Assembly (NCBI GenBank): GCA_018650465.1
Contig: JABIFY010000021.1
Span: 1-51,029 of the forward strand
Length of the DNA stretch: 51,029 bases
Reading direction: 5' to 3'
From: Alphaproteobacteria bacterium
GTDB lineage: Bacteria > Pseudomonadota > Alphaproteobacteria > UBA2966
The notes under the pieces are model-generated. The model worked only from the letters and a program-made list of their open reading frames with translations. It did no database searches and had not been told where the DNA came from. Below are positions 10,410-38,590 of the stretch, one piece after another; the stretch's first letter is position 1, and each line of letters opens with the position of its first letter. The translations under genes and the position numbers were made by a program.

Positions 10410-11132
10410 TTAATACATGTGCTGGCCACCATTGATGGACATGGTTGAGCCAGTAACAAAACCAGCATCATCAGCCGCCAGAAACATCACACCGCGCGCA
10501 ATATCCGAGGCCTGCCCCAAGCGCTTGACCGGAATACCCGCAATAATTTTTTCCAGTACTTCTGCCGGTACGGCGCGGACCATATCCGTGTCCACGTAAC
10601 CCGGTGCGATAGCGTTAACGGTGACGTTTTTGGCAGCGCCTTCCTGGGCCAGAGCCTTGGTGAAGCCGTGGATACCAGACTTGGCAGCCGCATAGTTCAC
10701 CTGGCCGTACTGACCAGCCTGACCATTGATCGAGCCAATGTTGATGATGCGGCCAAAACTGCGGGCGCGCATGCCATCGATCACCAGACGACACATGTTG
10801 AAGCATGAAGAAAGGTTGGTCTGAATAACTGCGTTCCAGGCTTCGAAATCCATGCGATGCAAAGTGCCATCGCGCGTGATACCGGCATTGTTGACCAGCA
10901 CATCGACGGGGCCAAGGTCAGCTTCAACTTGCTCAAGACCTGCCTTGCACTGTTCAAAATCGGCGACGTCCCATTTGTAAACGCTGATACCGGTTTCCTT
11001 GGCAAAGGCTTCGGCGGCTTCGACATTGCCGTGATAAGTAGCGGCGACGGTGTAACCGGCATTTTTTAATTGACGGGCGATCTCCGCGCCAATTCCGCGT
11101 GACCCGCCTGTAACGACTGCAACTCGTGACAT
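10410..11132 (-). CDS. phaB: Acetoacetyl-CoA reductase
   Basis: This NADPH-linked short-chain dehydrogenase should reduce acetoacetyl-CoA to (R)-3-hydroxybutyryl-CoA, the monomer for polyhydroxybutyrate. It has 240 residues, the usual PhaB length. The cofactor loop is TGGSRGIG, NNAG follows, then the catalytic Ser in INIGSINGQAGQ and Tyr-Lys in YAAAKSG. The frame extends 43 codons upstream, but the ATG at 11132 begins the family's normal N-terminus (MSRVAVVTGG) and has AGGGA nearby. phaA lies 55 bases upstream on the same strand, so the two form one operon, closed by a strong terminator at 10344-10378. Confidence 0.96.
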   Translation of the reverse strand: MSRVAVVTGGSRGIGAEIARQLKNAGYTVAATYHGNVEAAEAFAKETGISVYKWDVADFEQCKAGLEQVEADLGPVDVLVNNAGITRDGTLHRMDFEAWNAVIQTNLSSCFNMCRLVIDGMRARSFGRIINIGSINGQAGQYGQVNYAAAKSGIHGFTKALAQEGAAKNVTVNAIAPGYVDTDMVRAVPAEVLEKIIAGIPVKRLGQASDIARGVMFLAADDAGFVTGSTMSINGGQHMY

Positions 11133-11187
11133 TTTTAAAATTCCCTGTGAAGACCCTCGCAAGGGCCAATAATAGATTTCAGAACAG

Positions 11188-12363
11188 CTAGTCCCGTTCG
11201 ACACACATGGCGATACCCATGCCGCCACCGATACAAAGCGTTGCCAGACCTTTTTTGGCATCGCGATCTTTCATGGCATACAACAATGTTGTCAGAACCC
11301 GGGCACCCGAAGCACCAATGGGATGACCGATGGCAATAGCACCACCGTTGACGTTGACCTTGTCAGTATCCCAACCAAGGTCTTTATTGACGGCACAAGC
11401 TTGTGCGGCGAAGGCTTCGTTGGCTTCGACCAGATCAAGATCATCTGCGGTCCAGCCGGCTTTCTCCAAGGCCTTGCGGCTGGCCGGGATTGGACCGGAA
11501 CCCATGATCGACGGATCAACACCGGCCTGGGCCCAGGATTTAATTTTCGCCAACGGCTTGAGGCCCCGCTTTTCAGCTTCTTCTGCACTCATCAGAACCA
11601 GAGCGGCAGCGCCGTCATTAATGCCAGAAGCATTAGCGGCTGTAACCGTACCTTCCTTGTCAAAGGCCGGGCGCATACCGGAAACACTTTCCATAGTCGC
11701 ACCGTGACGAATGTATTCATCATCGGAGACAACTGTTTCACCCTTGCGAGTCTTGATGGTCACGGGCGTAATTTCGTCTGCGAACTTGCCAGCCTTTTGG
11801 GCGGCTTCCGCCTTGTTCTGGGAAGCTACAGCAAAGGTATCTTGTTGCTCGCGGGTGATCTGCCATTTGCTGGCAACGTTTTCCGCCGTATTGCCCATGT
11901 GATAACCATTGAAGGCATCCCACAAACCGTCGGTGATCATGGTGTCGATCATCTGGGCGTTGCCCATCTTGGTGCCGTTGCGCAAATGCATAACGTGTGG
12001 TGCCTGGCTCATGCTTTCCTGGCCACCGGCCACAACAACAGCCGAATCGCCTTCAGCAACCGCCTGAAAGCCGAGTGCCACCGAGCGCAGACCGGAGCCA
12101 CACAGCATGTTGACGCCCCAGGCAGGAACTTCAACGGGCAGACCGGCACCGATGGATGCCTGGCGAGCCGGGTTCTGACCTTCACCGGCAGAAAGAATTT
12201 GCCCCATGATGACTTCGGAAACATCAGCAGCGTCGACATTCGCGCGCTCCAACGCCGCCCGAATGGCGACGACGCCTAGCTCGTGGGCAGCAAGGGAGCT
12301 CAGGGCCCCGTTAAAAGAGCCGACAGGTGTGCGGGCAGCACTGACGATAACGACTTCGGTCAT
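11188..12363 (-). CDS. phaA: Acetyl-CoA acetyltransferase (beta-ketothiolase)
   Basis: This biosynthetic thiolase (391 residues) condenses two acetyl-CoA to acetoacetyl-CoA. The acyl-accepting Cys is in [11 protein letters not shown] near residue 89, the His in [10 protein letters not shown], and the second catalytic Cys in [14 protein letters not shown] start at the ATG at 12363, where TGGAG precedes by 8 bases, rather than ten codons further up. phaB follows 55 bases later. Upstream there is a -35-like TTGACT (minus strand, 12465-12460) beside a YTGC-N3-GCAR site at 12474-12484, so repression by PhaR is plausible. Confidence 0.96.
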
Positions 12364-12473
12364 AGTGGTCTCCAGATATGAAGCGCCCGACAACCGGGAA
12401 CTCCCTGTGGGTCAAAAACTGAAATTGAATTTGGCCTAAAATGACATGGAAGTTGTAGGAGTCAACAATAATG

Positions 12474-12503: not shown

Positions 12504-13799
12504 TCAGAAATCCGTCTTTAACCAGGCCAGCAAGTCTTTCCACAAACCATCTTTTGCACGACTGCTGACCACCATACCAATGTGACCGGACGGCGGTGAT
12601 ATGAGCATGGCACCAGGGATCAAGTCTGCCAATGGTGACGCGGCTTCCAAAGGCACAATGCGGTCATGGGCCGGGGCCGCAATCAGGGTTGGTATTTTCA
12701 GGTCTGCAGGGTCGACAACATCACCGGCAATAGTCCATTCGCCCTTGAACGGCGTATTATCGCGATACCAGCGGATCAAGCATTCGTGCGCAACCTTTTG
12801 CACCAGCGGGATCCCGTCGTTGAGCCAGTCCTCCAGCGCCACAAAGTCGGCGGCCTTGTCGCTGGCAGGATCAAGATTTGAAAACGTTCGGAATTTCCGC
12901 AAACCCAGGGCCGGGTCGAGACTGGCAAAAAAAGTTTGCAGAATATCCACCGGCAATTCACCGAAGCCATCAATCACAGAATCGATAGAGTCAGACACGG
13001 CGGCAAACAATTTGTTGTGCATGCCGGATCCGCCGTAAAAATCCCAGGGTGTCGCCATCAATACAAGGGTGCTGACATCCGATTGACGGCGCAACGCCAG
13101 CGCCAGCGCCAAATCGCCGCCCAGACAATAGCCCACAACGGGTGCCGGGCCGCCTGCCAACTTGACGACTTCATCAAGCGCATCTTCCAGGCGACCAGCG
13201 ATATAGTCATCCAGGCTATAACCCTTTTCGTCCTCACCAGGTGTGCCCCAGTCAACCAGTAAAGGCCGCACTCCCCGCGCCGCCAGCCAACGCAACATGC
13301 TTCGGCGGGCCGAGATATCCAGGACATACCCCTTGTTGACGAGCGAGGGCACAAACAGCACCGGCTTTCCGCCTGGTGAGGCATCTGGCACTGCACCGTA
13401 ATCCAGCAGACGGCTGGACCCTTGCTGCCAGATCGCTGGTGGATCATCCACATCGCGAACGTATGGATGCTGACGATAGGCTTCGATCCCGCCCAACATG
13501 ACTTGCAGTCGTTCCACCGCTTCCTTGCCAGCAGCTGGCAGTAATTCTTCCGCTGCAAGTTCTGAAAGGGCCTGGGCAAATTCATTGGCTTCGGCCCCCC
13601 ACCCTGTATCAGTTGGTATTTTTCCTGCCAACGAAGACGGCAGGGCCAGCATGGAACCGCCCAGGGCAGACAGGGCCGATGCCAGATGGAAGGCCAGCGG
13701 GCGCGGGCCCAACCGTTCTACATGACGCATCTGTCGTGCAGGAACTTCAGCTGGTTCTATGTGCGCGACAGCGCTTTTATCCGGGGCGGGTTTGCTCAT
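12504..13799 (-). CDS. phaC: Compact polyhydroxyalkanoate synthase (PhaC-like alpha/beta hydrolase)
   Basis: This protein polymerises (R)-3-hydroxyacyl-CoA to polyester at the granule surface, or is a close relative that does so. It is 431 residues long, shorter than class I synthases (near 600) and longer than class III PhaC (near 360). The lipase-like box is GYCLGG with nucleophile C225, D379 lies in AHDRIVP, and H406 in SGHIG, so the Cys-Asp-His triad is intact. FVPSLVNKGYVLDI and LVDWGTPGEDEKG are typical synthase blocks. No phaE partner is present. It is divergent from phaR and lies downstream of, but separate from, the phaAB unit. A depolymerase-like role is less likely because the nucleophile is Cys. 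Confidence 0.85.
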   Translation of the reverse strand: MSKPAPDKSAVAHIEPAEVPARQMRHVERLGPRPLAFHLASALSALGGSMLALPSSLAGKIPTDTGWGAEANEFAQALSELAAEELLPAAGKEAVERLQVMLGGIEAYRQHPYVRDVDDPPAIWQQGSSRLLDYGAVPDASPGGKPVLFVPSLVNKGYVLDISARRSMLRWLAARGVRPLLVDWGTPGEDEKGYSLDDYIAGRLEDALDEVVKLAGGPAPVVGYCLGGDLALALALRRQSDVSTLVLMATPWDFYGGSGMHNKLFAAVSDSIDSVIDGFGELPVDILQTFFASLDPALGLRKFRTFSNLDPASDKAADFVALEDWLNDGIPLVQKVAHECLIRWYRDNTPFKGEWTIAGDVVDPADLKIPTLIAAPAHDRIVPLEAASPLADLIPGAMLISPPSGHIGMVVSSRAKDGLWKDLLAWLKTDF

Positions 13800-13986: not shown

Positions 13987-13997
13987 TTGCAGCGCAG
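13987..13997. promoter_or_regulatory. Putative PhaR operator at the phaR start
   Basis: TTGCAGCGCAG matches YTGC-N3-GCAR. It ends 4 bases before the preferred GTG start of phaR and overlaps an alternative TTG start. A site here would let PhaR repress its own gene, as is known for PhaR in other bacteria. Confidence 0.45.
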
Positions 13998-14001
13998 CAA
14001 A

Positions 14002-14655
14002 GTGGACAAACCATTGAGTGAAAAAACCAACGATTCCGCGGACGGAAGCAAGCCCATCCTGATCAAGAAATACGCAAATCGCCGTCTCTACAACACGGCG
14101 ACCAGCAGCTATGTGACGCTTGATCATCTTTGCGTCATGGTCAAGGAAGGCCACGAGTTTGTCGTCGAAGATGCCAAATCCGGCGAAGACATTACCCGTT
14201 CCGTTTTGACGCAAATTATTTTCGAAGAAGAGAGCAAAGGCCAAAACCTTTTGCCGATCAACTTCTTGCGCCAACTCATTGGTTTTTATGGTGATAATCT
14301 GCAGCCCGTCGTGCCGCAATATCTGGAAATGACCATGGAGTCTTTTTCCAAAAACCAGGAAGCCATGCGCGAAAACCTGACCAATGTCATGGGGGACGCG
14401 AACCCCTTTGCAAAACTTGAGGAAGTGACGCGCCAGAACGTCAACATGTTCCAGCAGGCCATGAGCGCCTTCAATCCATTCCAGATGCCTGGCGCACCTG
14501 GAATGCCTGGGACATCGAGCAACGAACAGCCTGGGACGGCCGAAGCGGCAGTGGAACCCGGCACGGCAGAAAAGGAAAATGCGGATGACTTGTCCGATCT
14601 GAAAAACAAGCTGGCCGATCTTGAAAAACAAATAGGAAAGTTGTCGGAAAAATAA
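14002..14655 (+). CDS. phaR: Polyhydroxyalkanoate synthesis repressor PhaR
   Basis: PhaR binds DNA and polyester granules and represses granule-protein and synthesis genes until polymer forms. The N-terminal PHB/PHA accumulation regulator DNA-binding domain is clear (IKKYANRRLYNTATSSYVTLD, then LTQIIFEEES and LPINFLRQLIGFYG). A linker rich in Pro/Gly/Ala and a final heptad-like, probably coiled-coil tail (LKNKLADLEKQIGKL) follow. There is no ATG start. GTG 14002, TTG 14014 and TTG 13987 are the candidates, and none has a good ribosome-binding site. I use GTG 14002 (217 residues). It is divergent from phaC. Confidence 0.92.
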   Translation: MDKPLSEKTNDSADGSKPILIKKYANRRLYNTATSSYVTLDHLCVMVKEGHEFVVEDAKSGEDITRSVLTQIIFEEESKGQNLLPINFLRQLIGFYGDNLQPVVPQYLEMTMESFSKNQEAMRENLTNVMGDANPFAKLEEVTRQNVNMFQQAMSAFNPFQMPGAPGMPGTSSNEQPGTAEAAVEPGTAEKENADDLSDLKNKLADLEKQIGKLSEK

Positions 14656-17334: not shown

Positions 17335-19674
17335 TTACTCCGCGGCTGTAAGTAAATCTTCCGGACGCGGTGGTTTGGCCGCATCACGCAATTCGGCTTG
17401 CTCAAGATTATCCTTGGCGGACAATCCGGCCAGCTGGCCTTTGCCGCCCATATATTGAACAGGCCAGGGCTGATCTGCAAAACCGTAATGGGCTGCATCA
17501 TGCAACGTCTGATAGGGTTGAGCCAGATGCGGTCGAGCCAGGGCGCAAAAATCGGAACGACCGGCGGCGACGATTGTATTGACCTGGTCGCCCGAGGTAA
17601 TGGCACCAACGGCGATGGTCGGGATTCCGGCTTCAATACGAATGCGTTCGGCATAGGGGGTCTGGAACATGCGCCCGAATTCAATATCTTCATCAGTCGT
17701 CGTCTGACCGGTCGAGACATCAACAACGTCGACCCCGTGATCCTTCAGCATGCGGGCAATCTCGACCGCATCATCTCCGTTCAGGCCGCCTTCGACCCAA
17801 TCCATAGCCGAGATGCGAACGGACAAAGGTTTGGCTTTTGGCCAGACGGCGCGCACGGCATCCAGAACTTCCAGCGGATATTTCATGCGGGCAACCAGAT
17901 CGCCGCCATATTCATCTGAGCGCACATTAGTGACGGGCGAAATAAACGTGCCGAGCAGATAGCCGTGGGCCATGTGCACTTCCACCATATCAAAGCCTGC
18001 CGTATCTGCATTTTTGGCCGCCTGGACAAAATCATCGCGGACCACATCCATTTCGGCCCGGTTAATTTCTTTTGGCACCTGGCTGTTGGCGAGGTATGGA
18101 ATTGCTGAAGCAGCAACGATGGGCCAGGCCTGATCTGCCGGCAGCGGCTGATCATACCCGCCTTCCCATGGAATACAGGTGGCGGATTTACGACCAGCGT
18201 GGGAAATCTGCATACCAAAGACGGTAGCACTGTTGGCATGGACAAAATCGACAATGCGTTTCCAGGCCGCGACATGTTCATCGTTATAAATACCGGTACA
18301 GCCGGGACTGATGCGACCAGGTGCCGAGACACCAGTTGATTCCGTCCACATCATACCCGCGCCGCCAATGGCGCGCGAGCCGAGATGCACCATGTGCCAA
18401 TCGTTGGGCGTGCCATCTGTTGCCGAATATTGACACATGGGCGAGACCACAACCCGGTTGGGAATAATCTTGTCGGCCAGCTTGAAGGGCGTGAACATGG
18501 GCGGCGTGCCGTCTGGCACATTAACACCGGATTGTTTGCGGGCTTCGGCCACCACAAATTCATCAACTTGCTTGATAAACTTCGGGTCGCGCCGTCCGAG
18601 ATTTTCGTACGTAATGCGTTTGGACCGCGACAGCATGCTGAAGGTAAACTGGATGGCATCCATATCCATGTAGCGTTCAGTATCTTCAAACCATTTCAGG
18701 CTGGTGGTGGCAGTCTTTTGCAGGCGGGCCACTTCTTCCTTGCGGTCCCCTTCATAGGCGGCAAGCGCTGCCTTGACGTCGGTGCCGTTTGCCTGGAAGG
18801 CTTCATACAGGGCGATGGCATCTTCCATGGCCAATTTTGTGCCGGACCCGATGGAGAAATGCGCCGTATGCAAGGCATCGCCCAGCAGAACAATATTCTC
18901 ATGCACCCAATGTTCATTGCTGACAGTGGGGAAGGTACGCCACAGGGAGCGGTTCAACAACAATTCGTGGCCGTGCAGATCGTCCTTGTAAAGTTCAGCT
19001 ACATAATCGCGGGTTTCTTCTTCGGTGGCTTTATCCAGACCGGCCTTAAGCCAGGTCTCTTCCGTACATTCAACGATGAAGGTGCTGGCGTCAGCTTCGA
19101 ACTGATAGGCATGCACCCGGAACAGGCCATGCTGGCTTTCGCGGAAAATGAAGGTAAAGGCATCCAGCGGCAGGGTTGAGCCCAGCCAGACAAACTTGTT
19201 TTTGCGCCAATCCAGGTTCGGCTTGAAATGTTCGGCATTTTGATCGCGGATAAAACTGTTTATACCGTCCGATGCCAGGATCACATCGGCATCGCTGAAT
19301 TGCGCCAGATCGGTAATATCGGTTTCAAATTCAATTTTGACACCGGCGGCCAGACAATGTTTCTGGAAAATGCTCAGCAGTTTTTTGCGCGACATGCCGC
19401 AAAATCCATGGCCTTCGGATGTGACTTTTTTGTCTTTGTAATAAGTGTCGATGTTATCCCAGTAGGCAAAGTTACCGACGATGTCAGCGTAAGAGCCCTG
19501 GTCATAATCCAGAAAGCCCGACAGGGTTTCATCAGAAAACACCACACCAAAGCCAAAAGTGTCTTCTGGCTTATTGCGCTCGTAGACAACGATATCCCAG
19601 GAGGGGTTGGCCTTCTTGGTCAGCAGGGAAAAATATAATCCGGCGGGACCACCACCGACGACTGCGATTTTCAT
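17335..19674 (-). CDS. Flavin monooxygenase-old yellow enzyme fusion (2-aminobenzoyl-CoA monooxygenase/reductase or salicylyl-CoA 5-hydroxylase type)
   Basis: The 779-residue protein has two parts. Residues 1 to about 390 are an FAD aromatic hydroxylase (VGGGPAGLYFSLL at the start, then LASDGINSFIR and LLGDALHTAHFSIGSG). From about 400 an old-yellow-enzyme-like FMN barrel follows (VVSPMCQYSATDG, QISHAGRKS, HMAHGYLLGTFISP, DEYGG, VGAITSG). This is the architecture of Azoarcus 2-aminobenzoyl-CoA monooxygenase/reductase, which hydroxylates and then reduces the ring of a CoA thioester. Databases often call it bifunctional salicylyl-CoA 5-hydroxylase. The ATG at 19674 has GGAG 8 bases upstream, and 36 further upstream codons are not needed. 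An 18-base palindrome lies in its upstream region. The CoA ligase partner may be one of the two in this window. Confidence 0.85.
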   Translation of the reverse strand: MKIAVVGGGPAGLYFSLLTKKANPSWDIVVYERNKPEDTFGFGVVFSDETLSGFLDYDQGSYADIVGNFAYWDNIDTYYKDKKVTSEGHGFCGMSRKKLLSIFQKHCLAAGVKIEFETDITDLAQFSDADVILASDGINSFIRDQNAEHFKPNLDWRKNKFVWLGSTLPLDAFTFIFRESQHGLFRVHAYQFEADASTFIVECTEETWLKAGLDKATEEETRDYVAELYKDDLHGHELLLNRSLWRTFPTVSNEHWVHENIVLLGDALHTAHFSIGSGTKLAMEDAIALYEAFQANGTDVKAALAAYEGDRKEEVARLQKTATTSLKWFEDTERYMDMDAIQFTFSMLSRSKRITYENLGRRDPKFIKQVDEFVVAEARKQSGVNVPDGTPPMFTPFKLADKIIPNRVVVSPMCQYSATDGTPNDWHMVHLGSRAIGGAGMMWTESTGVSAPGRISPGCTGIYNDEHVAAWKRIVDFVHANSATVFGMQISHAGRKSATCIPWEGGYDQPLPADQAWPIVAASAIPYLANSQVPKEINRAEMDVVRDDFVQAAKNADTAGFDMVEVHMAHGYLLGTFISPVTNVRSDEYGGDLVARMKYPLEVLDAVRAVWPKAKPLSVRISAMDWVEGGLNGDDAVEIARMLKDHGVDVVDVSTGQTTTDEDIEFGRMFQTPYAERIRIEAGIPTIAVGAITSGDQVNTIVAAGRSDFCALARPHLAQPYQTLHDAAHYGFADQPWPVQYMGGKGQLAGLSAKDNLEQAELRDAAKPPRPEDLLTAAE

Positions 19675-19808
19675 GTACGGCTCCTGTAATATTCCGATGT
19701 CACTTAATATTTTGATGACGCTCGACTGAACGGGTGACACGACCTGAGTTTCCATTAATCTGGCTGAAACAGGTCGCATCATTTGTGAGTGGATGTTTTG
19801 TTGAGATA

Positions 19809-30496: not shown

Positions 30497-32851
30497 ATGA
30501 CTGACGACGTAATCCTTGCCACAGTACCACTGAAGTTTGGCTCTGGCCCGGCCCGCAATCGCCAGGAAGACCACCGCCTGTTGTCCGGTGGTGGCCGCTA
30601 TACTGAAGATGTGCATTGGGAAGGTGAAGCCCACGGTTATGTCTTTCGCGCCCCGTATGGGCACGCAAAAGTTCTGGAACTGGACGTGTCGGCAGCACGT
30701 GAGGCTGAAAGTGTGTTGGCGGTCTATACTTATGATGATCTGAAAGCCGCGGGTTACGGCCCCTTCCCCTTTGGCCTGCCAGTCAAAAATGCCGATGGCA
30801 GTGATCCTTTTGTGCCAGACCGCCATGCTTTAGCATCGGATAAAATCCGCCATGTGGGCGAACCTCTGGCCTTTGTCGTGGCTGAAACCCGTGTTGCTGC
30901 CCAGGATGCCGCTGAACAGATTTATCTGGATGTAGAAATATTGGAGGCTGTGACCGATCCAACAAAGGCGTTGGATACGGGTGCCCCACAATTATTCGAC
31001 GGCCATGCCAACCAGTGCATTGAGTGGCAAAACAACGACGGCAGCGAAGTCTCGGCGGCCCTGGAAGCGGCGGCCCATGTGGCAACGGTTGAAGTCGACA
31101 TCAACCGACTGGTTGTGGCGACCATGGAACCGCGTGGTGCCATCGCAAAATATGATGCCGCCAACGAACATTTCACCCTGCACCTGGGCGGCCAGGGAAA
31201 CTGGGGTACGCGGCAAACCCTGGCCACAGCCGTGCTGAAGATCGAGCCGGAAAAGCTGCGCGTGGTCTGTGATGATATTGGTGGCTCCTTCGGCATGAAG
31301 GCGCAAATGCATGCCGAACCCGTGCTGGTCTTGCATGCCGCCCGCGATCTGGGACGTGCGGTGCACTGGATGGAAGACCGCAGCGGCAGTTTTGTTTCTG
31401 ACATGCAGGGACGCGGCTATTATGTCAAAGGCGAGTTGGGCCTGGATGAAGCCGGAAATTTTGTTGCCCTGCGTCTGGATGGTTTCAGTGATCTGGGCGG
31501 CTGGTGCACAGCACTGGCCCCCATGATGCACGGCATCAACATTATGAAAAATGCGCCCAGTTTATATAAAACACCCTTGATGCATGTGCACACACGTGCG
31601 GTCTTTACCAACAAGGTACCAATGGCCCCCTATCGCGGCGCCGGACGTCCGGAGGGCAATTATGTCATGGAACGCCTGGTGGAAGCCGCCGCAGAGATCA
31701 CCGGCCGCGATGCTCTGGAATTGCGCCGCCTGAACTTCATTCAGCCCGATGCCATCCCTTTCAAGGCGGCCTCAGGCCTTGTCTATGACAGCGGTGATTT
31801 CCCGGCGCTGATGGAAAAGGCCTTGAGCAAATCGAACTGGCAGGGCTTTGATGCCCGTCGCGAACAGTCGATAAAAAACGGATATCTGCGTGGGCGCGGC
31901 ATTGCCAGTTTCCTGGAAGTCACCGGCCCGCCCGGTGCCGAGACAGGTGGCATCCAGTTCAGTGATGACGGCCAGATTACGATCGTCACTGGCACATCAG
32001 ATCAGGGCCAGGGACACCTGACCGCCTTTGCCGAAATCCTTCACCAGTTATTGGGTGTGCCTCATGAAGCCGTGCTTCTGAACCAGGGTGACAGTGATCA
32101 ATTGCTGGGCAGTGGCGGCACCGGCGGATCAAAATCCCTAATGGCAACGGGCACAGCGCTGGATGCCGCCGCGACCGTTGTCATTGAGAAGGGCCGCAAG
32201 TGGGCCGGGCATATTCTGGAAGCGGCGGTTGAGGATATCGAGTTTTCCAGCGGCAATTTCCAGGTCGTGGGAACGGACAAGTCCGTACCCCTGATTGATC
32301 TGGCCCAACAGGTCATGGCCATCGAGAATATCCCCGATGATATGCCCGATAGTCTGGACACCAAACTAACGGCAGACTCGCCGCCTTCTGCTTTTCCCAA
32401 TGGCTGCCATGTCTGTGAAGTTGAAATTGACCCAGCCACCGGCCAGGTGCGGGTGGATCGATATACAGCCGTCGATGATTTTGGCACCGTTATTAATCAG
32501 GCCATTGTTGAGGGCCAGGTGCATGGTGGCATCGTTCAGGGCCTGGGCCAGGTCTTGATGGAAGATGCTTACTATGACGCGGATGGTCAGCTATTGGCTG
32601 GCAGTTTCATGGACTATGCCATGCCTCGGGCACAGGACATGCCTTGGTTTGATGTCTCGGAACATCCTGTACCTGCGACCACCAATATTCTTGGCGTCAA
32701 AGGCGTGGGCGAGGCTGGCACAAGTGGTTCTATCCCCAGCGCCATGATTGCCATTCTCGATGCCCTGAAGCCCTTGGGCGTCACCGATATCTCCATGCCC
32801 GCCACACCGGAACGTGTCTGGCAAGCCATTCAGGATGCGAAATCAGTGTAA
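30497..32851 (+). CDS. Xanthine dehydrogenase-family molybdopterin-binding subunit, orphan
   Basis: This 784-residue protein is the large catalytic subunit of a CoxL/xanthine-dehydrogenase-type molybdenum hydroxylase. It has GGSFGMK, APYRGAGRPE (type II CoxL-like, around 377-386), and the active-site Glu E739 in GVGEAGTSG, so the catalytic residues are kept. The true CO-dehydrogenase loop AYxCSFR is absent, so CO oxidation is unlikely. Normally FAD and 2Fe-2S subunit genes lie beside it; here the neighbours are an aldolase and a small membrane protein. The partners must be elsewhere, or the protein works with another set. It is divergent from the aldolase gene. Confidence 0.9.
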   Translation: MTDDVILATVPLKFGSGPARNRQEDHRLLSGGGRYTEDVHWEGEAHGYVFRAPYGHAKVLELDVSAAREAESVLAVYTYDDLKAAGYGPFPFGLPVKNADGSDPFVPDRHALASDKIRHVGEPLAFVVAETRVAAQDAAEQIYLDVEILEAVTDPTKALDTGAPQLFDGHANQCIEWQNNDGSEVSAALEAAAHVATVEVDINRLVVATMEPRGAIAKYDAANEHFTLHLGGQGNWGTRQTLATAVLKIEPEKLRVVCDDIGGSFGMKAQMHAEPVLVLHAARDLGRAVHWMEDRSGSFVSDMQGRGYYVKGELGLDEAGNFVALRLDGFSDLGGWCTALAPMMHGINIMKNAPSLYKTPLMHVHTRAVFTNKVPMAPYRGAGRPEGNYVMERLVEAAAEITGRDALELRRLNFIQPDAIPFKAASGLVYDSGDFPALMEKALSKSNWQGFDARREQSIKNGYLRGRGIASFLEVTGPPGAETGGIQFSDDGQITIVTGTSDQGQGHLTAFAEILHQLLGVPHEAVLLNQGDSDQLLGSGGTGGSKSLMATGTALDAAATVVIEKGRKWAGHILEAAVEDIEFSSGNFQVVGTDKSVPLIDLAQQVMAIENIPDDMPDSLDTKLTADSPPSAFPNGCHVCEVEIDPATGQVRVDRYTAVDDFGTVINQAIVEGQVHGGIVQGLGQVLMEDAYYDADGQLLAGSFMDYAMPRAQDMPWFDVSEHPVPATTNILGVKGVGEAGTSGSIPSAMIAILDALKPLGVTDISMPATPERVWQAIQDAKSV

Positions 32852-33159
32852 CGAAACCTATCTATTGATCAAATTCATGAGATACGCAGTGCCCTGGAAG
32901 GACTGATGTAAAGGAAATCCAGGCAGCATGTATTTGAATGAAACAGAAACACTGTAGATGACGTCCGATAAAACGCGTTAAACAGACGTCAAAACTCTCT
33001 CAGGGACATAGCTGCTTTTGACCCTGAACGGACAAAATTCTCATTCAAATCGTTCTACTTGGCAAAAAATGGCAGTCGCGATAGGCTTACGGTGCAGGCT
33101 TCGACCAGATACTTTCTGTGCAACAAATATGGCTGCTATTTTCAGATCGGAGGTACGAA
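32852..33159. other. Intergenic region between the molybdenum hydroxylase and a membrane protein gene
   Basis: No gene, RNA or strong repeat is visible in these 308 bases, only short low-quality frames. A good ribosome-binding site CGGAGG lies at its end (33148-33153) and decides the start of the next gene. Confidence 0.5.
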
Positions 33160-33576
33160 GTGTTCCTTTTTGACCCTTTTCGAATGATCGTTGATATTGG
33201 ACGAGCCAACCGCAATATCTACTTTTGGGGTGGCGCATTAAATATTCCGCAGGTTGTCGGAGGCGTGTTTTTTTTCGATCATGTAGAAGCGCAGGCAATC
33301 TTGGTCGTAGCGATCTTGGGTCTGATCGTAGCAGGTCAAATTCACAAAAAGGCCGCCTTTTCCCGCATGATCGGAATGTGTCATTTGCCGTGGCTTCTGC
33401 TATTACCCTGGCTGATATACAGGCAGGCAAACATAGAGTACCCATTTTGGTTAGAAGCCTGGCTCTACTATTCGTCTGCCACCATTGCGGCGAGTTTGAT
33501 ATTTGATGCGATGGACTTCTATCGATATTCCAAAGGACAAAAAACGTTCGCTTGGGCTGAGGACAAAAGTGAATAA
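33160..33576 (+). CDS. Small membrane protein of unknown function
   Basis: The protein has 138 residues with three or four hydrophobic segments (about 25-35, 41-55, 70-86 and 95-115) and a polar C-terminal tail. I recognise no family. I start at the GTG at 33160 because CGGAGG stands 6 bases upstream; the frame is open 14 codons further to another GTG but without such a site. WGGALNIPQVVGGVFFF and ILGLIVAGQIHKK suggest a small integral membrane protein. Neighbours give no clear hint of its function. Confidence 0.7.
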   Translation: MFLFDPFRMIVDIGRANRNIYFWGGALNIPQVVGGVFFFDHVEAQAILVVAILGLIVAGQIHKKAAFSRMIGMCHLPWLLLLPWLIYRQANIEYPFWLEAWLYYSSATIAASLIFDAMDFYRYSKGQKTFAWAEDKSE

Positions 33577-33669: not shown

Positions 33670-35190
33670 CTAAATATCGTCTTCGCTGATCCCGGCGAGG
33701 CGGCGAGCGTGGGTGCGTTTTGCGCCCACATCCATGCCACGGGCGATTTGCACACGCTGGGCCTGGGGTGATCCGGCACCGTGCATGCTTTCGGTCAAAT
33801 AACCAACGGCATTACGGCCCAGGGTCATGTTTTCGATCAAGCGCAAGATGCGCATGCGATCTTCCACCGGGGTGTTTTCGCGACCAATCAGGAACTTGCG
33901 GATCAGCGGACCGACGTCGTCATTTTCCAGATCCTGTTCTGAGGGCAAGGTGACCATCAGGCCCCCGGCCAGGTCCTGGGCAAGTCGGGCAATTTCATAA
34001 GGAAAGCGCGTCACATTTTGTTTGCAGACATTGGCGTGCATGTCATCATTTTGCCAGACGCCGGATTTCATGGGGCGGGCTTCATGGGCTGAAGCCAGGG
34101 CCGATCCGGCGATGGTCTCGTTCAGGTGCGCCATCTCGATCAGTTTGTCTTTGATATGGGAGGCTTTGGAGACACCGTTCATATCGGCGATTTCCGCCGC
34201 CGCCCCGATCAGAACATCGCCCACACCCGTTTTGCAGATATAGCTGCACCGGTGATAGGTCGTGAACCGTTCCACCAGATCGGCGGCAAAATCAAATTCC
34301 CCGTTCATGAACACACGGTCATAGGGAATAAAAACATCGTCAAACACGATCATGGCTTCCTGGCCTGCGAAACTTGCGTTTCCGGCATCAATATTGCCGT
34401 CCTCCATACTGCGGGTGTCGTTGGACTGGCGGCCATAGATGTAGGTAATACCTTCAGCGTGGGCCGGAACCGCACCAACGATGGCAAAGTCCTTGTCTTC
34501 TTCTGTCAGGCGAATGGTCGGCATGACAATCAGCCAGTGAGAATTAATGCAACCGGTTTGATGACATTTCACGCCACGCACCACGACACCGTCTTCCCGT
34601 CGCTCGGAAATATGCAAGTAAACATCCTGGTCAATTTGCTGGTGCGGGGCTTTGCTGCGGTCACCCTTGGCATCTGTCATGGCCCCACCGATGACCTGGT
34701 TCTTTTTCTGTACCTTGGCAAGAAAGGACAGGAAGCGCGCATGATAATCCGTGCCATGGACTTCATCGATATCGTAGGTCACGCTGTGCAGGGAATTTAT
34801 AGCGTCCAGTCCGACACAACGCTGAAAGCAAGTGCCTGTGCGACTGCCGAGATCACGCTGCATGCGGGCTTTGGCCACCAGATCACCGGCACTTTCATGA
34901 ATGTGTAAAAACCGGTTCACGCGATCACCGGTATAGGGTGACAAAGCGGTCACCGCCTCGGGGTTTTCTTCCGCCAGACGATAGGTTTCCGCCATGGAAT
35001 TAATCGACGTACGAACCATCGGGTGATCGATAGGTTCGTCCAGACATTTGCCAAAGAGGTACACCTTCATGGGCCGCCCCCGCAGGCTGTCGATATAATC
35101 ATCCCCGCCTGTGATGGTGTCGTAATCGCCCCAGTCGGCTGACCTGAGATCTTCGGAATCAGCGGCGGTCATCTGCTCAGCACTACTCAT
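33670..35190 (-). CDS. 4-hydroxybutyryl-CoA dehydratase-like protein (HpaB superfamily)
   Basis: This 506-residue protein has the HpaB/acyl-CoA-dehydrogenase-like fold but carries the features of 4-hydroxybutyryl-CoA dehydratase, which turns 4-hydroxybutyryl-CoA into crotonyl-CoA. GTCFQRCVGLDA supplies C121 and C125, and YHRCSYICKTGVGD supplies H313 and C319, matching the three Cys and one His that bind the 4Fe-4S cluster. Further blocks AMTDAKGDRSKAP, HLNETIAGSALAS, NVCKQNVTRFPYEIARL and YLTESMHGAGSPQAQR agree with this branch and not with flavin-only 4-hydroxyphenylacetate 3-hydroxylases. The spacing between H313 and C319 seems one residue shorter than I recall for the clostridial enzyme. 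Downstream of the 35231-37225 aminopeptidase gene, it may share its transcript. Confidence 0.78.
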   Translation of the reverse strand: MSSAEQMTAADSEDLRSADWGDYDTITGGDDYIDSLRGRPMKVYLFGKCLDEPIDHPMVRTSINSMAETYRLAEENPEAVTALSPYTGDRVNRFLHIHESAGDLVAKARMQRDLGSRTGTCFQRCVGLDAINSLHSVTYDIDEVHGTDYHARFLSFLAKVQKKNQVIGGAMTDAKGDRSKAPHQQIDQDVYLHISERREDGVVVRGVKCHQTGCINSHWLIVMPTIRLTEEDKDFAIVGAVPAHAEGITYIYGRQSNDTRSMEDGNIDAGNASFAGQEAMIVFDDVFIPYDRVFMNGEFDFAADLVERFTTYHRCSYICKTGVGDVLIGAAAEIADMNGVSKASHIKDKLIEMAHLNETIAGSALASAHEARPMKSGVWQNDDMHANVCKQNVTRFPYEIARLAQDLAGGLMVTLPSEQDLENDDVGPLIRKFLIGRENTPVEDRMRILRLIENMTLGRNAVGYLTESMHGAGSPQAQRVQIARGMDVGAKRTHARRLAGISEDDI

Positions 35191-35230: not shown

Positions 35231-37225
35231 TCAATCGAGGGGCGCAGTCATTTTTTCCAGCCAGATCCTGTCGGCTGCGTCCAGTTCGGGGCCGACGGTA
35301 TTGAAGACCCGATCATGATAGGCATCCACCCAGGCCCGCTCCGGCCTGGTCAGCATTTCCACATCAATCAGGTGGCGGTCCAGGGGCACGACGGTCAGGG
35401 TTTCAAATTCCAGAAACTTGCGCTCGTCCGTGCTTCGCTCACTGGCATGCACTGTCAACAAATTTTCAATCCGGATACCGTATTTGCCCGTGATATACAG
35501 ACCAGGTTCGTTCGAGACAATCATGCCAGGCTTGAAGGTGCCCGGAAAGTTTGGCGCAATCCTGTGCGGGCCTTCATGCACGCCAAGGTATGACCCCACA
35601 CCGTGGCCGGTACCGTGATCATAATCCAGGCCTTCGCGCCAAAGAAATTGGCGGGCCATGGCATCCAGTTGACCGCCCGTCGCCTTGTCGGGAAAGACCG
35701 CGCAGGCAATGGCGATATGTCCCTGCAGCACCAGGGTGAAGTGTCGTTTCATCTCAGGCGTCGGGGTACCGATGGCAACCGTGCGGGTGATGTCGGTGGT
35801 GCCATCCAGATACTGCCCGCCACTGTCGACCAGATACATCGAACCCTGGGCCAGGAAACGTTCACTCTCGTAGCTGGCCCGGTAGTGCACAATGGCACCA
35901 TTGTCGTCAGCCCCGGATATGGTATCAAAACTGATGCCCCGGTTCAGGCCGATTTCGCAACGATATCCGTTCAGAACATCAATGGCTTCCATTTCGCCGA
36001 CGTCGCGTGTGGCCGTTGTCTCATCTAACCAGCGCAGAAACCGGCACATGGCGATGGCGTCACGTTCGTGGGCCCGGCGTGTGCCATCCAGCTCAACCTT
36101 GTTCTTGCAGGCCCTGGGCATCACGGTCGGGTCCGCGCCGGCAACGATATTCGCGCCACCTGCTTCCAGGGTACGGCGGATGTGATCCGTTGAGGTCGAG
36201 CGGTCAAGCAGGACTTTGCGGTTGGTAACACCCAGCGCCTTTAAACCTTCATCAAGCTTGTCAACATTGTGCACCGTAACCCGGTTGCCCAGGTGACGTT
36301 CCAGATCAGGCGTAAACTTTTGCCGATCAACATAAAAATCGGCCTGGCCGTCTTTGTGCAGGACAGCAAAACTTTGGATCAGGGGTGTGTTGGAAACGTC
36401 ACCGCCGCGCACATTCAGGGCCCAGGCCACAGCTTCCATCTGGTTCAAGACGGCAGCATCCGCACCCGCCTCGGCGATTAAATCACCAAGCGATGCCAGT
36501 TTGTCGTCGACACTTTGGCCGCTATATTCCAGGGGATGCGGCACGACAGGCGCGAAAGGCGGCAAGGGCTGATCGGTCCAGACCCCATCCAGTGGATTAT
36601 CACTTAACGCCACCAGTTCAATACCACTGCCGTCCAGGATTTTGCACATGCTGTCGATCTGGGCCACATTATGCAGATCAGGATCATAGCCGATACGGTC
36701 GCCCTTTTCCCCTGCATCCAGCAGCCAGTTCACAAGGGGGGGTTCCATAAAATGGCGCACCTCCACTTCGCTGTCTTCAAATTGAAGTCCCGCCTGCAAG
36801 GTATAGCGCCCATCCACGAACAGTATTGTTCTGCCCTTGAACATCAAGGCAGTCCCGGCAGAACCGGCAAATCCGGTCAGCCAATGCAGGCGTTGCGCGC
36901 GACTGGCAATATATTCCCCTTGATGGGCGTCTGCTTGTGGCACCAGAAAACCCTGCACATTTTTTTCGGTCAAAGCATTTGCCAGAGCCGTCAGACGTGC
37001 CGGCGCGTAGTCCGCAACATCCACTTGGGCAGCCTGCCGGGCAGCAACAAGCCTTTGACGCAAATCGTCACTGGCACCCGGTGCGGTAAGCGCGACCCAG
37101 GCATCCGGGTCAGGTCCTTCAGGTGTCGCGCCAAGCCGTTGAAAAACAATTTTTAAAGCGGTTGCCCCGCCTTCAATGCCTGCTTCTTCAGCGATCTTTG
37201 ATAGCTGTTGTTCCGTTGTCGTCAT
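35231..37225 (-). CDS. Aminopeptidase P family protein (M24B)
   Basis: A 664-residue cytoplasmic metallopeptidase of the three-domain Xaa-Pro aminopeptidase type. Two creatinase-like N-terminal domains precede the pita-bread domain. The dimetal ligands are visible: two Asp in YLVDSGGQYLDGTTDITR, His in YDHGTGHGVGSYLGVHEGPHRI, and Glu in VSNEPGLYI and YGIRIENL. It removes N-terminal residues before proline. An N-terminal addition of about 50 residues precedes the usual start, and the ATG at 37225 could be the true one or could be long. It lies 40 bases upstream of the dehydratase gene on the same strand. Confidence 0.9.
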   Translation of the reverse strand: MTTTEQQLSKIAEEAGIEGGATALKIVFQRLGATPEGPDPDAWVALTAPGASDDLRQRLVAARQAAQVDVADYAPARLTALANALTEKNVQGFLVPQADAHQGEYIASRAQRLHWLTGFAGSAGTALMFKGRTILFVDGRYTLQAGLQFEDSEVEVRHFMEPPLVNWLLDAGEKGDRIGYDPDLHNVAQIDSMCKILDGSGIELVALSDNPLDGVWTDQPLPPFAPVVPHPLEYSGQSVDDKLASLGDLIAEAGADAAVLNQMEAVAWALNVRGGDVSNTPLIQSFAVLHKDGQADFYVDRQKFTPDLERHLGNRVTVHNVDKLDEGLKALGVTNRKVLLDRSTSTDHIRRTLEAGGANIVAGADPTVMPRACKNKVELDGTRRAHERDAIAMCRFLRWLDETTATRDVGEMEAIDVLNGYRCEIGLNRGISFDTISGADDNGAIVHYRASYESERFLAQGSMYLVDSGGQYLDGTTDITRTVAIGTPTPEMKRHFTLVLQGHIAIACAVFPDKATGGQLDAMARQFLWREGLDYDHGTGHGVGSYLGVHEGPHRIAPNFPGTFKPGMIVSNEPGLYITGKYGIRIENLLTVHASERSTDERKFLEFETLTVVPLDRHLIDVEMLTRPERAWVDAYHDRVFNTVGPELDAADRIWLEKMTAPLD

Positions 37226-37298: not shown

Positions 37299-37682
37299 TT
37301 ATTTGATATTGAGGATTCGCCCAACATAGGTCATGTCATCTTCAAGGATGTGACTAATCAACCACTGGCTGAGATAGGCATGGGTTTCGGCAGTCAAGTC
37401 TTCAATATTGTGGACGGACCCGGCAAACTTTTCTTGCATTGCGCTCAACCAGTCGACAAATTTCTGGTGACCTAGTTTATGGGCCGGAAGGCCACTGAAA
37501 TGGGCAGCAGACAATAATCGCTCCTCATCAAAGAAATGTTCTTCGACATAGGTTTTCAAAAATTCAATTGCTTCGTCAAAATCCTCACAGCTTGGCAAGG
37601 CATTAATCATATTGATCAAATCCTTGTGTTGCTTGTCCAGCGAGGCAACACCAACGCTATAGCTGTCTTTCCATTCCAACAT
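37299..37682 (-). CDS. Bacteriohemerythrin
   Basis: This 127-residue single-domain hemerythrin has all seven di-iron ligands: H19, H49, E53, H68, H72, H111 and D116, with the sequence contexts DKQHKDL, EEHFFDEE, HKLGHQ and HILEDD. It should bind oxygen reversibly and act as an oxygen store, sensor or donor to oxygenases. It is a single gene. Oxygen delivery to the monooxygenase-reductase would be a pleasing link but is speculation. Confidence 0.93.
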   Translation of the reverse strand: MLEWKDSYSVGVASLDKQHKDLINMINALPSCEDFDEAIEFLKTYVEEHFFDEERLLSAAHFSGLPAHKLGHQKFVDWLSAMQEKFAGSVHNIEDLTAETHAYLSQWLISHILEDDMTYVGRILNIK

Positions 37683-37852: not shown

Positions 37853-38590
37853 TCAGCGACGACGCCGACCGCTGCGTCCCATACGGTCATCAAGATTGGT
37901 TTTGCCTTGACCAATCGTTGCCCGCATGGCTTTTTCAGCACCCCGTTTATCGCCTGCGCGAATGCGATCCAGAACTTCTTTGTGGGCTGGCAATCCCATG
38001 CCCAAAGGCACATCAACTTCACTTTGCAACTGGAATGTCAGCGCCAGAATGGTGACGACAATTGAACTCATTCGGTCGATGAACTGGTTGTGGCAGGACG
38101 CTAACACGGCCAGGTGAAAATCCCTGTCAGCTTCGTAAAAGCCCTGAACGTTTTTCTGGTTTTCTTCCATCCGGACGTAAGCATCATCTATTTTATCGAT
38201 GTCTTCGCTGCTGGCGCGATCCGCCGCAAAGCGCGCTGCCACAGGCTCTATAACCTCTCGCATCTCCATCAAATCGTCGATCAGTGGCTCACCGATGCTT
38301 TCCGGTGATAACCATGACAGGACATCCGGGTCCAGCAGATCCCATTCTTCACGCGGACGAACAAATGTGCCCGCCCGCTGGCGAGCCTCAATCAATCCCT
38401 TGGAGGCCAGTACCTTCAGCGCCTCACGTGTTGCCGTGCGGCTGGCTTCAAACCTGGCTGTCAGTTCGGCATCTGCTGGCAAGCGATCAGCAGGCTTCAG
38501 ACGACCGGAACCGATCTCTTCGCCAAGTTCATGAACGATACGGCCATGGATGCCGGTACGGGGATAACTTCTGATTGATGAATTTGCCAT
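37853..38590 (-). CDS. FadR/GntR-family transcriptional regulator 1
   Basis: The 245-residue protein has an N-terminal winged helix-turn-helix (GRLKPADRLPADAELTARFEASRTATREALKVLASKGLIEARQRAGTFV) and a C-terminal FCD ligand-binding domain (REVIEPVAARFAADRA, FHLAVLASCHNQF, HKEVLDRIRAGD). It probably senses a sugar acid or its 2-keto-3-deoxy product and represses the surrounding catabolic genes. It is a close paralogue of the regulator at 46760-47554 by whole-length sequence. It is downstream of kdgK and eda but 108 bases apart from eda, so it may have its own promoter. Confidence 0.92.
   Translation of the reverse strand: MANSSIRSYPRTGIHGRIVHELGEEIGSGRLKPADRLPADAELTARFEASRTATREALKVLASKGLIEARQRAGTFVRPREEWDLLDPDVLSWLSPESIGEPLIDDLMEMREVIEPVAARFAADRASSEDIDKIDDAYVRMEENQKNVQGFYEADRDFHLAVLASCHNQFIDRMSSIVVTILALTFQLQSEVDVPLGMGLPAHKEVLDRIRAGDKRGAEKAMRATIGQGKTNLDDRMGRSGRRRR

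Follow-up and report, generated by a model that had tools for sequence, protein, structure and literature searches.

Enzymes of the AbfD family are homotetramers in which FAD and a [4Fe-4S] cluster, one of whose ligands is a histidine, bring about dehydration by way of a ketyl radical. The 4-hydroxybutyryl-CoA dehydratases (4HBD) perform a chemically hard dehydration and serve as a marker for CO2 fixation by archaea. Two solved structures serve as references here: 1U8V, which we take to be AbfD of Clostridium aminobutyricum, and 6VJR, presumably the 4-hydroxybutyryl-CoA dehydratase of Nitrosopumilus maritimus (gene Nmar_0207). In AbfD, C99, C103, H292 and C299 are assumed to be the cluster ligands, and T190, E257, Y296, K300, Y452 and E455 to be active-site residues; both assignments, of ligands and of residue functions, were reportedly worked out by Martins in 2004. 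Defluviicoccus belongs to the alphaproteobacteria. A listing within PMC9041414 gives abfD in most Defluviicoccus genomes and so, as far as that listing goes, the gene has already been annotated in print for this class. Oxygen tolerance is stated for the thaumarchaeal (N. maritimus) enzyme in a passage of PMC11494057 that cites a preprint on it. Our literature search, which covered titles and the openings of abstracts, found no characterised 4HBD of an aerobic bacterium, which is no proof of absence.

The dehydratase gene and its nearest solved relatives

Within the window (the whole 51,029-nucleotide stretch of alphaproteobacterial DNA that was analysed), an open reading frame on the reverse strand (33670-35190, ATG start, 506 aa) almost certainly encodes, judging from its sequence, a genuine 4-hydroxybutyryl-CoA dehydratase (EC 4.2.1.120) of the 6VJR-like H-x5-C type. 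When PDB chains were searched with the protein (phmmer), 6VJR ranked first under the name vinylacetyl-CoA delta-isomerase (E 5.5e-225) and 1U8V second, as a gamma-aminobutyrate metabolism dehydratase/isomerase (E 2.1e-167), with an HpaB-type enzyme third (E 4.7e-32). The alignment with 6VJR was gapless over 480 residues, of which 329 were identical, and identity to AbfD (1U8V) over aligned columns was 55.0%. The initial annotation, which had proposed a 4-hydroxybutyryl-CoA dehydratase within the HpaB superfamily, is borne out by this identity, by the gapless match, by the active-site residues and by the phylogeny. It had also pointed to C121, C125, H313 and C319, and all four residues stand at exactly these places and align on C99, C103, H292 and C299 of 1U8V, respectively; the codons of these predicted 4Fe-4S ligands, counted from the start of the reading frame, lie on the reverse strand at 34828..34830 (C121), 34816..34818 (C125), 34252..34254 (H313) and 34234..34236 (C319).

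Six further AbfD positions are identical in the alignment (AbfD/window protein: T190/T212, E257/E278, Y296/Y317, K300/K320, Y452/Y464 and E455/E467), K320 following directly after C319. Five residues separate H313 from C319 (H-x5-C), as in 6VJR, and six separate the corresponding ligands in AbfD (H-x6-C). An AlphaFold2 model of the protein, made from six sequences, had a mean pLDDT of 52 and was too poor for use; that the ligands would meet round one cluster is suggested by the gapless match to 6VJR. The gene and its counterpart in a congener (MAG SI054_bin61) share 82.2% nucleotide and 92.5% protein identity, with pN 0.041, pS 0.64 and dN/dS ~0.03 (NG86; dS of 1.47 is near saturation), and the dehydratase codons are under strong purifying selection. 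Its GC content is 55% against 54% for the whole window, and it shows no sign of recent arrival or of decay. Chance resemblance is excluded by the phmmer E-values for 6VJR and 1U8V together with the low dN/dS.

The protein matches the Pfam domains HpaB_N and HpaB, which is how such proteins come by hydroxylase names (standard annotation calls this kind of gene phenol hydroxylase), and its plasmid homologues are annotated as HpaB. An ordinary FADH2-dependent 4-hydroxyphenylacetate 3-hydroxylase (HpaB) would fit those names, but this identity is refuted on sequence grounds and has practically no probability left. Two HpaB chains (2YYK and 9LFT) are only 20.6 and 21.5% identical to the window protein and are both without the Cys/His ligands; the scores against the curated NCBIfam models HpaB-1 (156.5 bits, cut-off 480.2) and HpaB-2 (79.2 bits, cut-off 885.2) fall far short; and the genome has a different, HpaB-like gene of its own (L002). 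Grouping with the 4-hydroxyphenylacetate 3-hydroxylases had been named beforehand as the outcome that would speak against a dehydratase, and in the tree the window protein fell apart from HpaB.

Phylogeny, motif spacing and distribution of homologues

In a 55-row tree, the window protein, its congener counterpart, 6VJR and eleven further bacterial rows formed a clade (support 100/100); next to it stood AbfD, paired with an actinobacterial row (97/86), and the HpaB chains and the HpaB-like L002 were remote from the window protein. A 34-row tree with plasmid relatives recovered a 16-row clade that included the window protein and 6VJR (100/98), the inner base of this clade and its relation to the AbfD group being without resolution. 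Rows from duplicate or overlapping fetches (L001, L003, L018, L019, L042-L053 and L056), L009 (similar to L008) and the partial L026 were left out before the trees were built, and the 34-row tree further left out 15 of the 19 paralogue rows described below and all HpaB-like rows; one of four equal-scoring Bradyrhizobium elkanii plasmid matches was used, and a Fusobacterium sequence entered the motif count only.

The H-x5-C spacing was present in all 16 rows of the 6VJR clade, and in the partial L026, and in 0/15 other ligand-complete sequences (14 tree rows and Fusobacterium), every one of which had H-x6-C. Named hosts of the former are Candidatus Actinomarina, an Acidimicrobiia MAG, B. elkanii, Sphingomonas paeninsulae and the congener MAG; besides AbfD, those of the latter are Cetobacterium and Fusobacterium. 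In an AU test bearing on the direction of transfer, with a single archaeal sequence, an arrangement of the bacterial H-x5-C rows as one clade without 6VJR was not rejected (p 0.405).

Among 385 alphaproteobacterial genomes, 26 had a match at E 1e-70. The ligand-complete type occurred in ten (63-100% identical: the genome itself, the congener and eight from four other families) and a paralogue in 17 at the same threshold, one genome (G267) having both types; the ligand-complete homologues are patchy across the class. At that level, five further genomes of the host's family and eight of its order gave no match. A phylum sample of 299 genomes, overlapping the class sample, gave two matches (the genome itself and one paralogue), and 22 of 246 genomes from the phylum of the Actinomarina record matched, 15 loci of those listed being examined in detail. 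The genome searches start with a loose first look, and absences from them are no proof. Of 72,556 plasmid records, seven passed E 1e-60, and B. elkanii accounted for four of these; the same plasmid search with the paralogue L027 as query found nothing, and the viral contigs held no relative of the window protein. The initial annotation was fair in naming clostridia and carbon-fixing archaea as the best-known sources of such enzymes, but close homologues are also found in Bradyrhizobium and Sphingomonas.

The paralogue constitutes a second, proteobacterial 4HBD-like subfamily (L005-L007, L027-L041 and L069), 35-38% identical to the window protein in the class search and sister to the ligand-complete enzymes in the 55-row tree. 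It retains the residues equivalent to AbfD C99, T190, H292 and Y452, but two of the four ligands and several catalytic residues are replaced: in 19/19 sequences C103 is Tyr, C299 is Ala, E455 is Ile, Y296 is Cys and K300 is Arg, and the E257 position is never Glu. The motifs GCA-x-RY and HHRxxCxxARxG stand in place of CFQRC and HRxSYxCKxG. Some surveys may include the paralogue under abfD, and it should probably not be counted as a marker at all. Passages of PMC4195664 claim a 3-hydroxypropionate/4-hydroxybutyrate (HP/HB) cycle for SBR1093 and Bradyrhizobiaceae, and give the SBR1093 'HBCD' as 30-34% identical to archaeal and 80-82% identical to Bradyrhizobiaceae proteins. From those figures we infer that this 'HBCD' fits the identity level of the ligand-lacking paralogue, which calls some published bacterial HP/HB-cycle claims into question.

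A wider proposal can be offered only tentatively, with the odds somewhat against it as a whole: that the oxygen-type (H-x5-C) 4HBD, by repute a thaumarchaeal speciality, is really common by cross-domain transfer to scattered aerobic bacteria (this lineage, the Bradyrhizobium and Sphingomonas plasmids and Candidatus Actinomarina), where it would drive the aerobic conversion of 4-hydroxybutyrate to acetyl-CoA by a route not yet described, and that some published Rhizobiales 'HP/HB cycle' calls rest on a paralogue minus half of the cluster ligands.

Gene surroundings and metabolic role

The order GntR regulator, M24 peptidase, dehydratase, CoxL-like gene, aldolase, GST is common to the window and the congener, colinearity between the two extending only from ~28.9 to 50.9 kb of the window. 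The M24 peptidase gene (aminopeptidase P-like; 35231..37225, reverse strand) lies 40 nt upstream of the dehydratase, an adjacency kept in the congener (L015); the pair may be co-transcribed, and a metabolic link is not evident. Further upstream, a GntR/FCD regulator (37853..38590, reverse strand) is a possible local regulator. Between the regulator and the pair lies a bacteriohemerythrin gene (37299-37682) with no match in the congener stretches compared.

On the other side, a CoxL-like molybdopterin hydroxylase large subunit of 784 aa (30497..32851, forward strand) is convergent with the dehydratase, again an adjacency kept in L015; it scores below the cut-off of all 13 NCBIfam models that it matched. 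The genes adjoining it are annotated here as neither medium nor small subunits. As a partner of the dehydratase it was rejected: its counterpart on the B. elkanii plasmid is 35% identical and in the other orientation, and the congener has further CoxL-like genes nearby, so that the co-location is likely to be due to chance. The 0.8 kb that separates the two genes, which the congener is without, holds a 152-aa reading frame (33118-33576) that is hydrophobic by eye and has no Pfam match and no match in the congener stretches compared. Elsewhere in the window, an 815-aa fusion of FAD_binding_3 and Oxidored_FMN (old yellow enzyme) domains is encoded at 17335-19782. No pathway gene adjoins the dehydratase in the window, where its company is the M24 peptidase, the hemerythrin, the GntR regulator and the convergent CoxL-like gene.

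Expected pathway genes do stand beside homologues elsewhere, and these count in favour of a dehydratase in 4-hydroxybutyrate catabolism. The Cetobacterium gene is beside an AbfT-type CoA-transferase and an annotated 4-hydroxybutyrate dehydrogenase, an AbfT-like transferase adjoins the dehydratase in G583, and a MaoC hydratase and a thiolase lie near it in Actinomarina and UBA1281; the MaoC gene of the alphaproteobacterial locus L042 is held in common with Actinomarina (50%). On the B. elkanii plasmid (L078, 4835-16960), the locus comprises an enoyl-CoA hydratase, a three-subunit molybdenum hydroxylase, a lactonase (nearest AttM, 135.6 bits, below the cut-off of 390), an SDR, an AMP-ligase, a binding protein, the 4HBD and CoxG, and our guess is a route for a lactone, a cyclic ether or a C4 diol. 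On the Sphingomonas plasmid the dehydratase is followed by genes for a wax-ester synthase-like protein and a CaiB-type transferase as its nearest company. In other alphaproteobacteria the neighbours are unrelated and different each time: no conserved operon emerged, there being no common neighbour at E 1e-15 among L024, L042, L043, L044, L047, L048, L073 and L074 except within one family (L044, L047 and L073). The reading frames of these neighbourhoods were picked mechanically, and the dehydratase itself was missed in L071 and L072, so genes may be missed.

By analogy with the AbfD family, the window protein would form a homotetramer that binds FAD and, through C121, C125, H313 and C319, a [4Fe-4S] cluster; its cofactors, activity and substrate are predicted from its relatives. 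FAD would take one electron while a base strips C2 and C3 of protons by way of a ketyl radical, and the hydroxyl would depart from C4 near the cluster to give crotonyl-CoA; as is usual in the family, the enzyme would also isomerise vinylacetyl-CoA. A ligase or CoA-transferase whose gene lies elsewhere would activate 4-hydroxybutyrate to its CoA ester, and crotonyl-CoA would yield acetyl-CoA by way of 3-hydroxybutyryl-CoA and acetoacetyl-CoA, probably in the presence of oxygen. Catabolism of 4-hydroxybutyrate via crotonyl-CoA to acetyl-CoA, its other steps being deduced, is probably the role of the gene and the likeliest one. The pathway role is the weakest step of the explanation, and to the explanation as a whole, an H-x5-C dehydratase feeding 4-hydroxybutyrate catabolism, we assign a probability of about 0.72.

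As to activation, the genome's only PF13336 transferase lies on contig C142; it is AbfT-like, and its best solved matches are called 4-hydroxybutyrate CoA-transferases. Directly after it comes an ADP-forming acyl-CoA synthetase whose best solved match is a 4-hydroxybutyrate-CoA ligase (374.5 bits, versus 371.1 bits for a 3-hydroxypropionate ligase); a second PF13607 match, on contig C86, is weak (42 bits). The cluster (L083, 1663-13254) comprises a CaiB transferase, the AbfT-like transferase, the synthetase, a 467-aa protein without a Pfam match, AtuA and biotin carboxylase/carboxyltransferase genes, whereas the congener's version (L084) has no synthetase. Another acid could be the substrate of these enzymes, given the AtuA and biotin carboxylase neighbours; because of the CaiB, AtuA and carboxylase company and the missing synthetase in the congener, neither the transferase nor the synthetase is firmly assigned. 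Co-occurrence also fails to mark the AbfT-like transferase as a dedicated partner, since in a search of 46 genomes (E 1e-30) it was found in 2/10 alphaproteobacterial genomes with the enzyme and in 9/36 without. A dedicated 4-hydroxybutyrate dehydrogenase was not evident, the sole match being partial and 28% identical, and a lactonase search, run with no positive control, found none.

The changing neighbourhoods between genera and the want of a fixed 4-hydroxybutyrate operon in alphaproteobacteria would also suit a true Fe-S/FAD dehydratase of this fold whose natural substrate is a different 4-substituted butyryl-CoA, or one confined to vinylacetyl-CoA isomerisation, for example in a catabolism where a larger compound is broken down to a 4-hydroxyacyl-CoA; the two Sphingomonas neighbours named above and a class II aldolase with MaoC in G305 point the same way. 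Set against this are the ten checked positions, identical to both 1U8V and 6VJR, and the extent of identity to 6VJR, and we consider such a role unlikely. A complete HP/HB carbon-fixation cycle in this bacterium might be read from the nearest solved homologue, 6VJR, presumably the thaumarchaeal cycle enzyme, and from the presence of an ADP-forming ligase related to both 4-hydroxybutyrate and 3-hydroxypropionate ligases. The ligase, however, sits among AtuA and carboxylase genes and is missing from the congener's cluster; the steps searched for beyond the dehydratase were the acid-activating enzymes and 4-hydroxybutyrate dehydrogenase only. Cycles have been proposed for bacteria such as Luminiphilus (PMC9802188, section 10), but the same section holds that a bacterial cycle cannot be diagnosed from this enzyme by itself, and a complete cycle here is most improbable. 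Since close ligand-complete homologues occur in bacteria, the marker alone shows neither archaeal nor autotrophic metabolism.

The initial annotation had connected the dehydratase with a polyhydroxybutyrate (PHB) locus, and the window does hold genes for an acetoacetyl-CoA reductase (phaB-like, 10410-11261), a thiolase (phaA-like, 11188-12393), a PHA synthase-like protein (phaC-like, 12504-13799; 163 bits, below the cut-off of 365) and phaR (13987-14655); hydration of crotonyl-CoA can, moreover, give 3-hydroxybutyryl-CoA, so that a part in PHB or P4HB polymer metabolism is conceivable. These genes (10.4-14.7 kb), however, lie 19 kb and about a dozen genes from the dehydratase, and gene order departs from that of the congener beyond window position 28.9 kb. 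Homologues of phaA, phaC and phaR were absent at E 1e-3 from the 100 kb round the congener's gene (L075, L076 and L087-L089), where phaB found two general SDR matches only (31-33%). The dehydratase would, besides, compete for 4-hydroxybutyryl-CoA, which it turns to crotonyl-CoA in place of polymer according to a passage of PMC8659255. On distance, the congener's 100 kb and the competing reaction, the link to the locus was rejected, and we leave a part in polymer metabolism only a very slim chance.

Comparison with known systems

Compared with HpaB (2YYK and 9LFT), the window protein has the superfamily in common (Pfam HpaB_N, HpaB) but differs in its 21-22% identity, in ligands that those chains are without and in its separate clade. 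With AbfD it shares 55% identity, the four ligands and the six further positions, but AbfD carries H-x6-C with Gly-Gly and groups with Cetobacterium and G583. Likeness is greatest to 6VJR: 329/480 residues identical without a gap, all ten checked positions and a common H-x5-C spacing. The differences from it are 24 residues ahead of the matched stretch, a cysteine at C315 (H-R-C) where 6VJR has R, and the host, an alphaproteobacterium. Bacterial H-x5-C enzymes of this sort are new material on the question of why the enzyme tolerates oxygen. What the window holds belongs to an established enzyme family, in the form that ammonia-oxidising archaea are known to have, and is not a new kind of system; the right enzyme from a known family is found in a less usual host and in less usual gene company.
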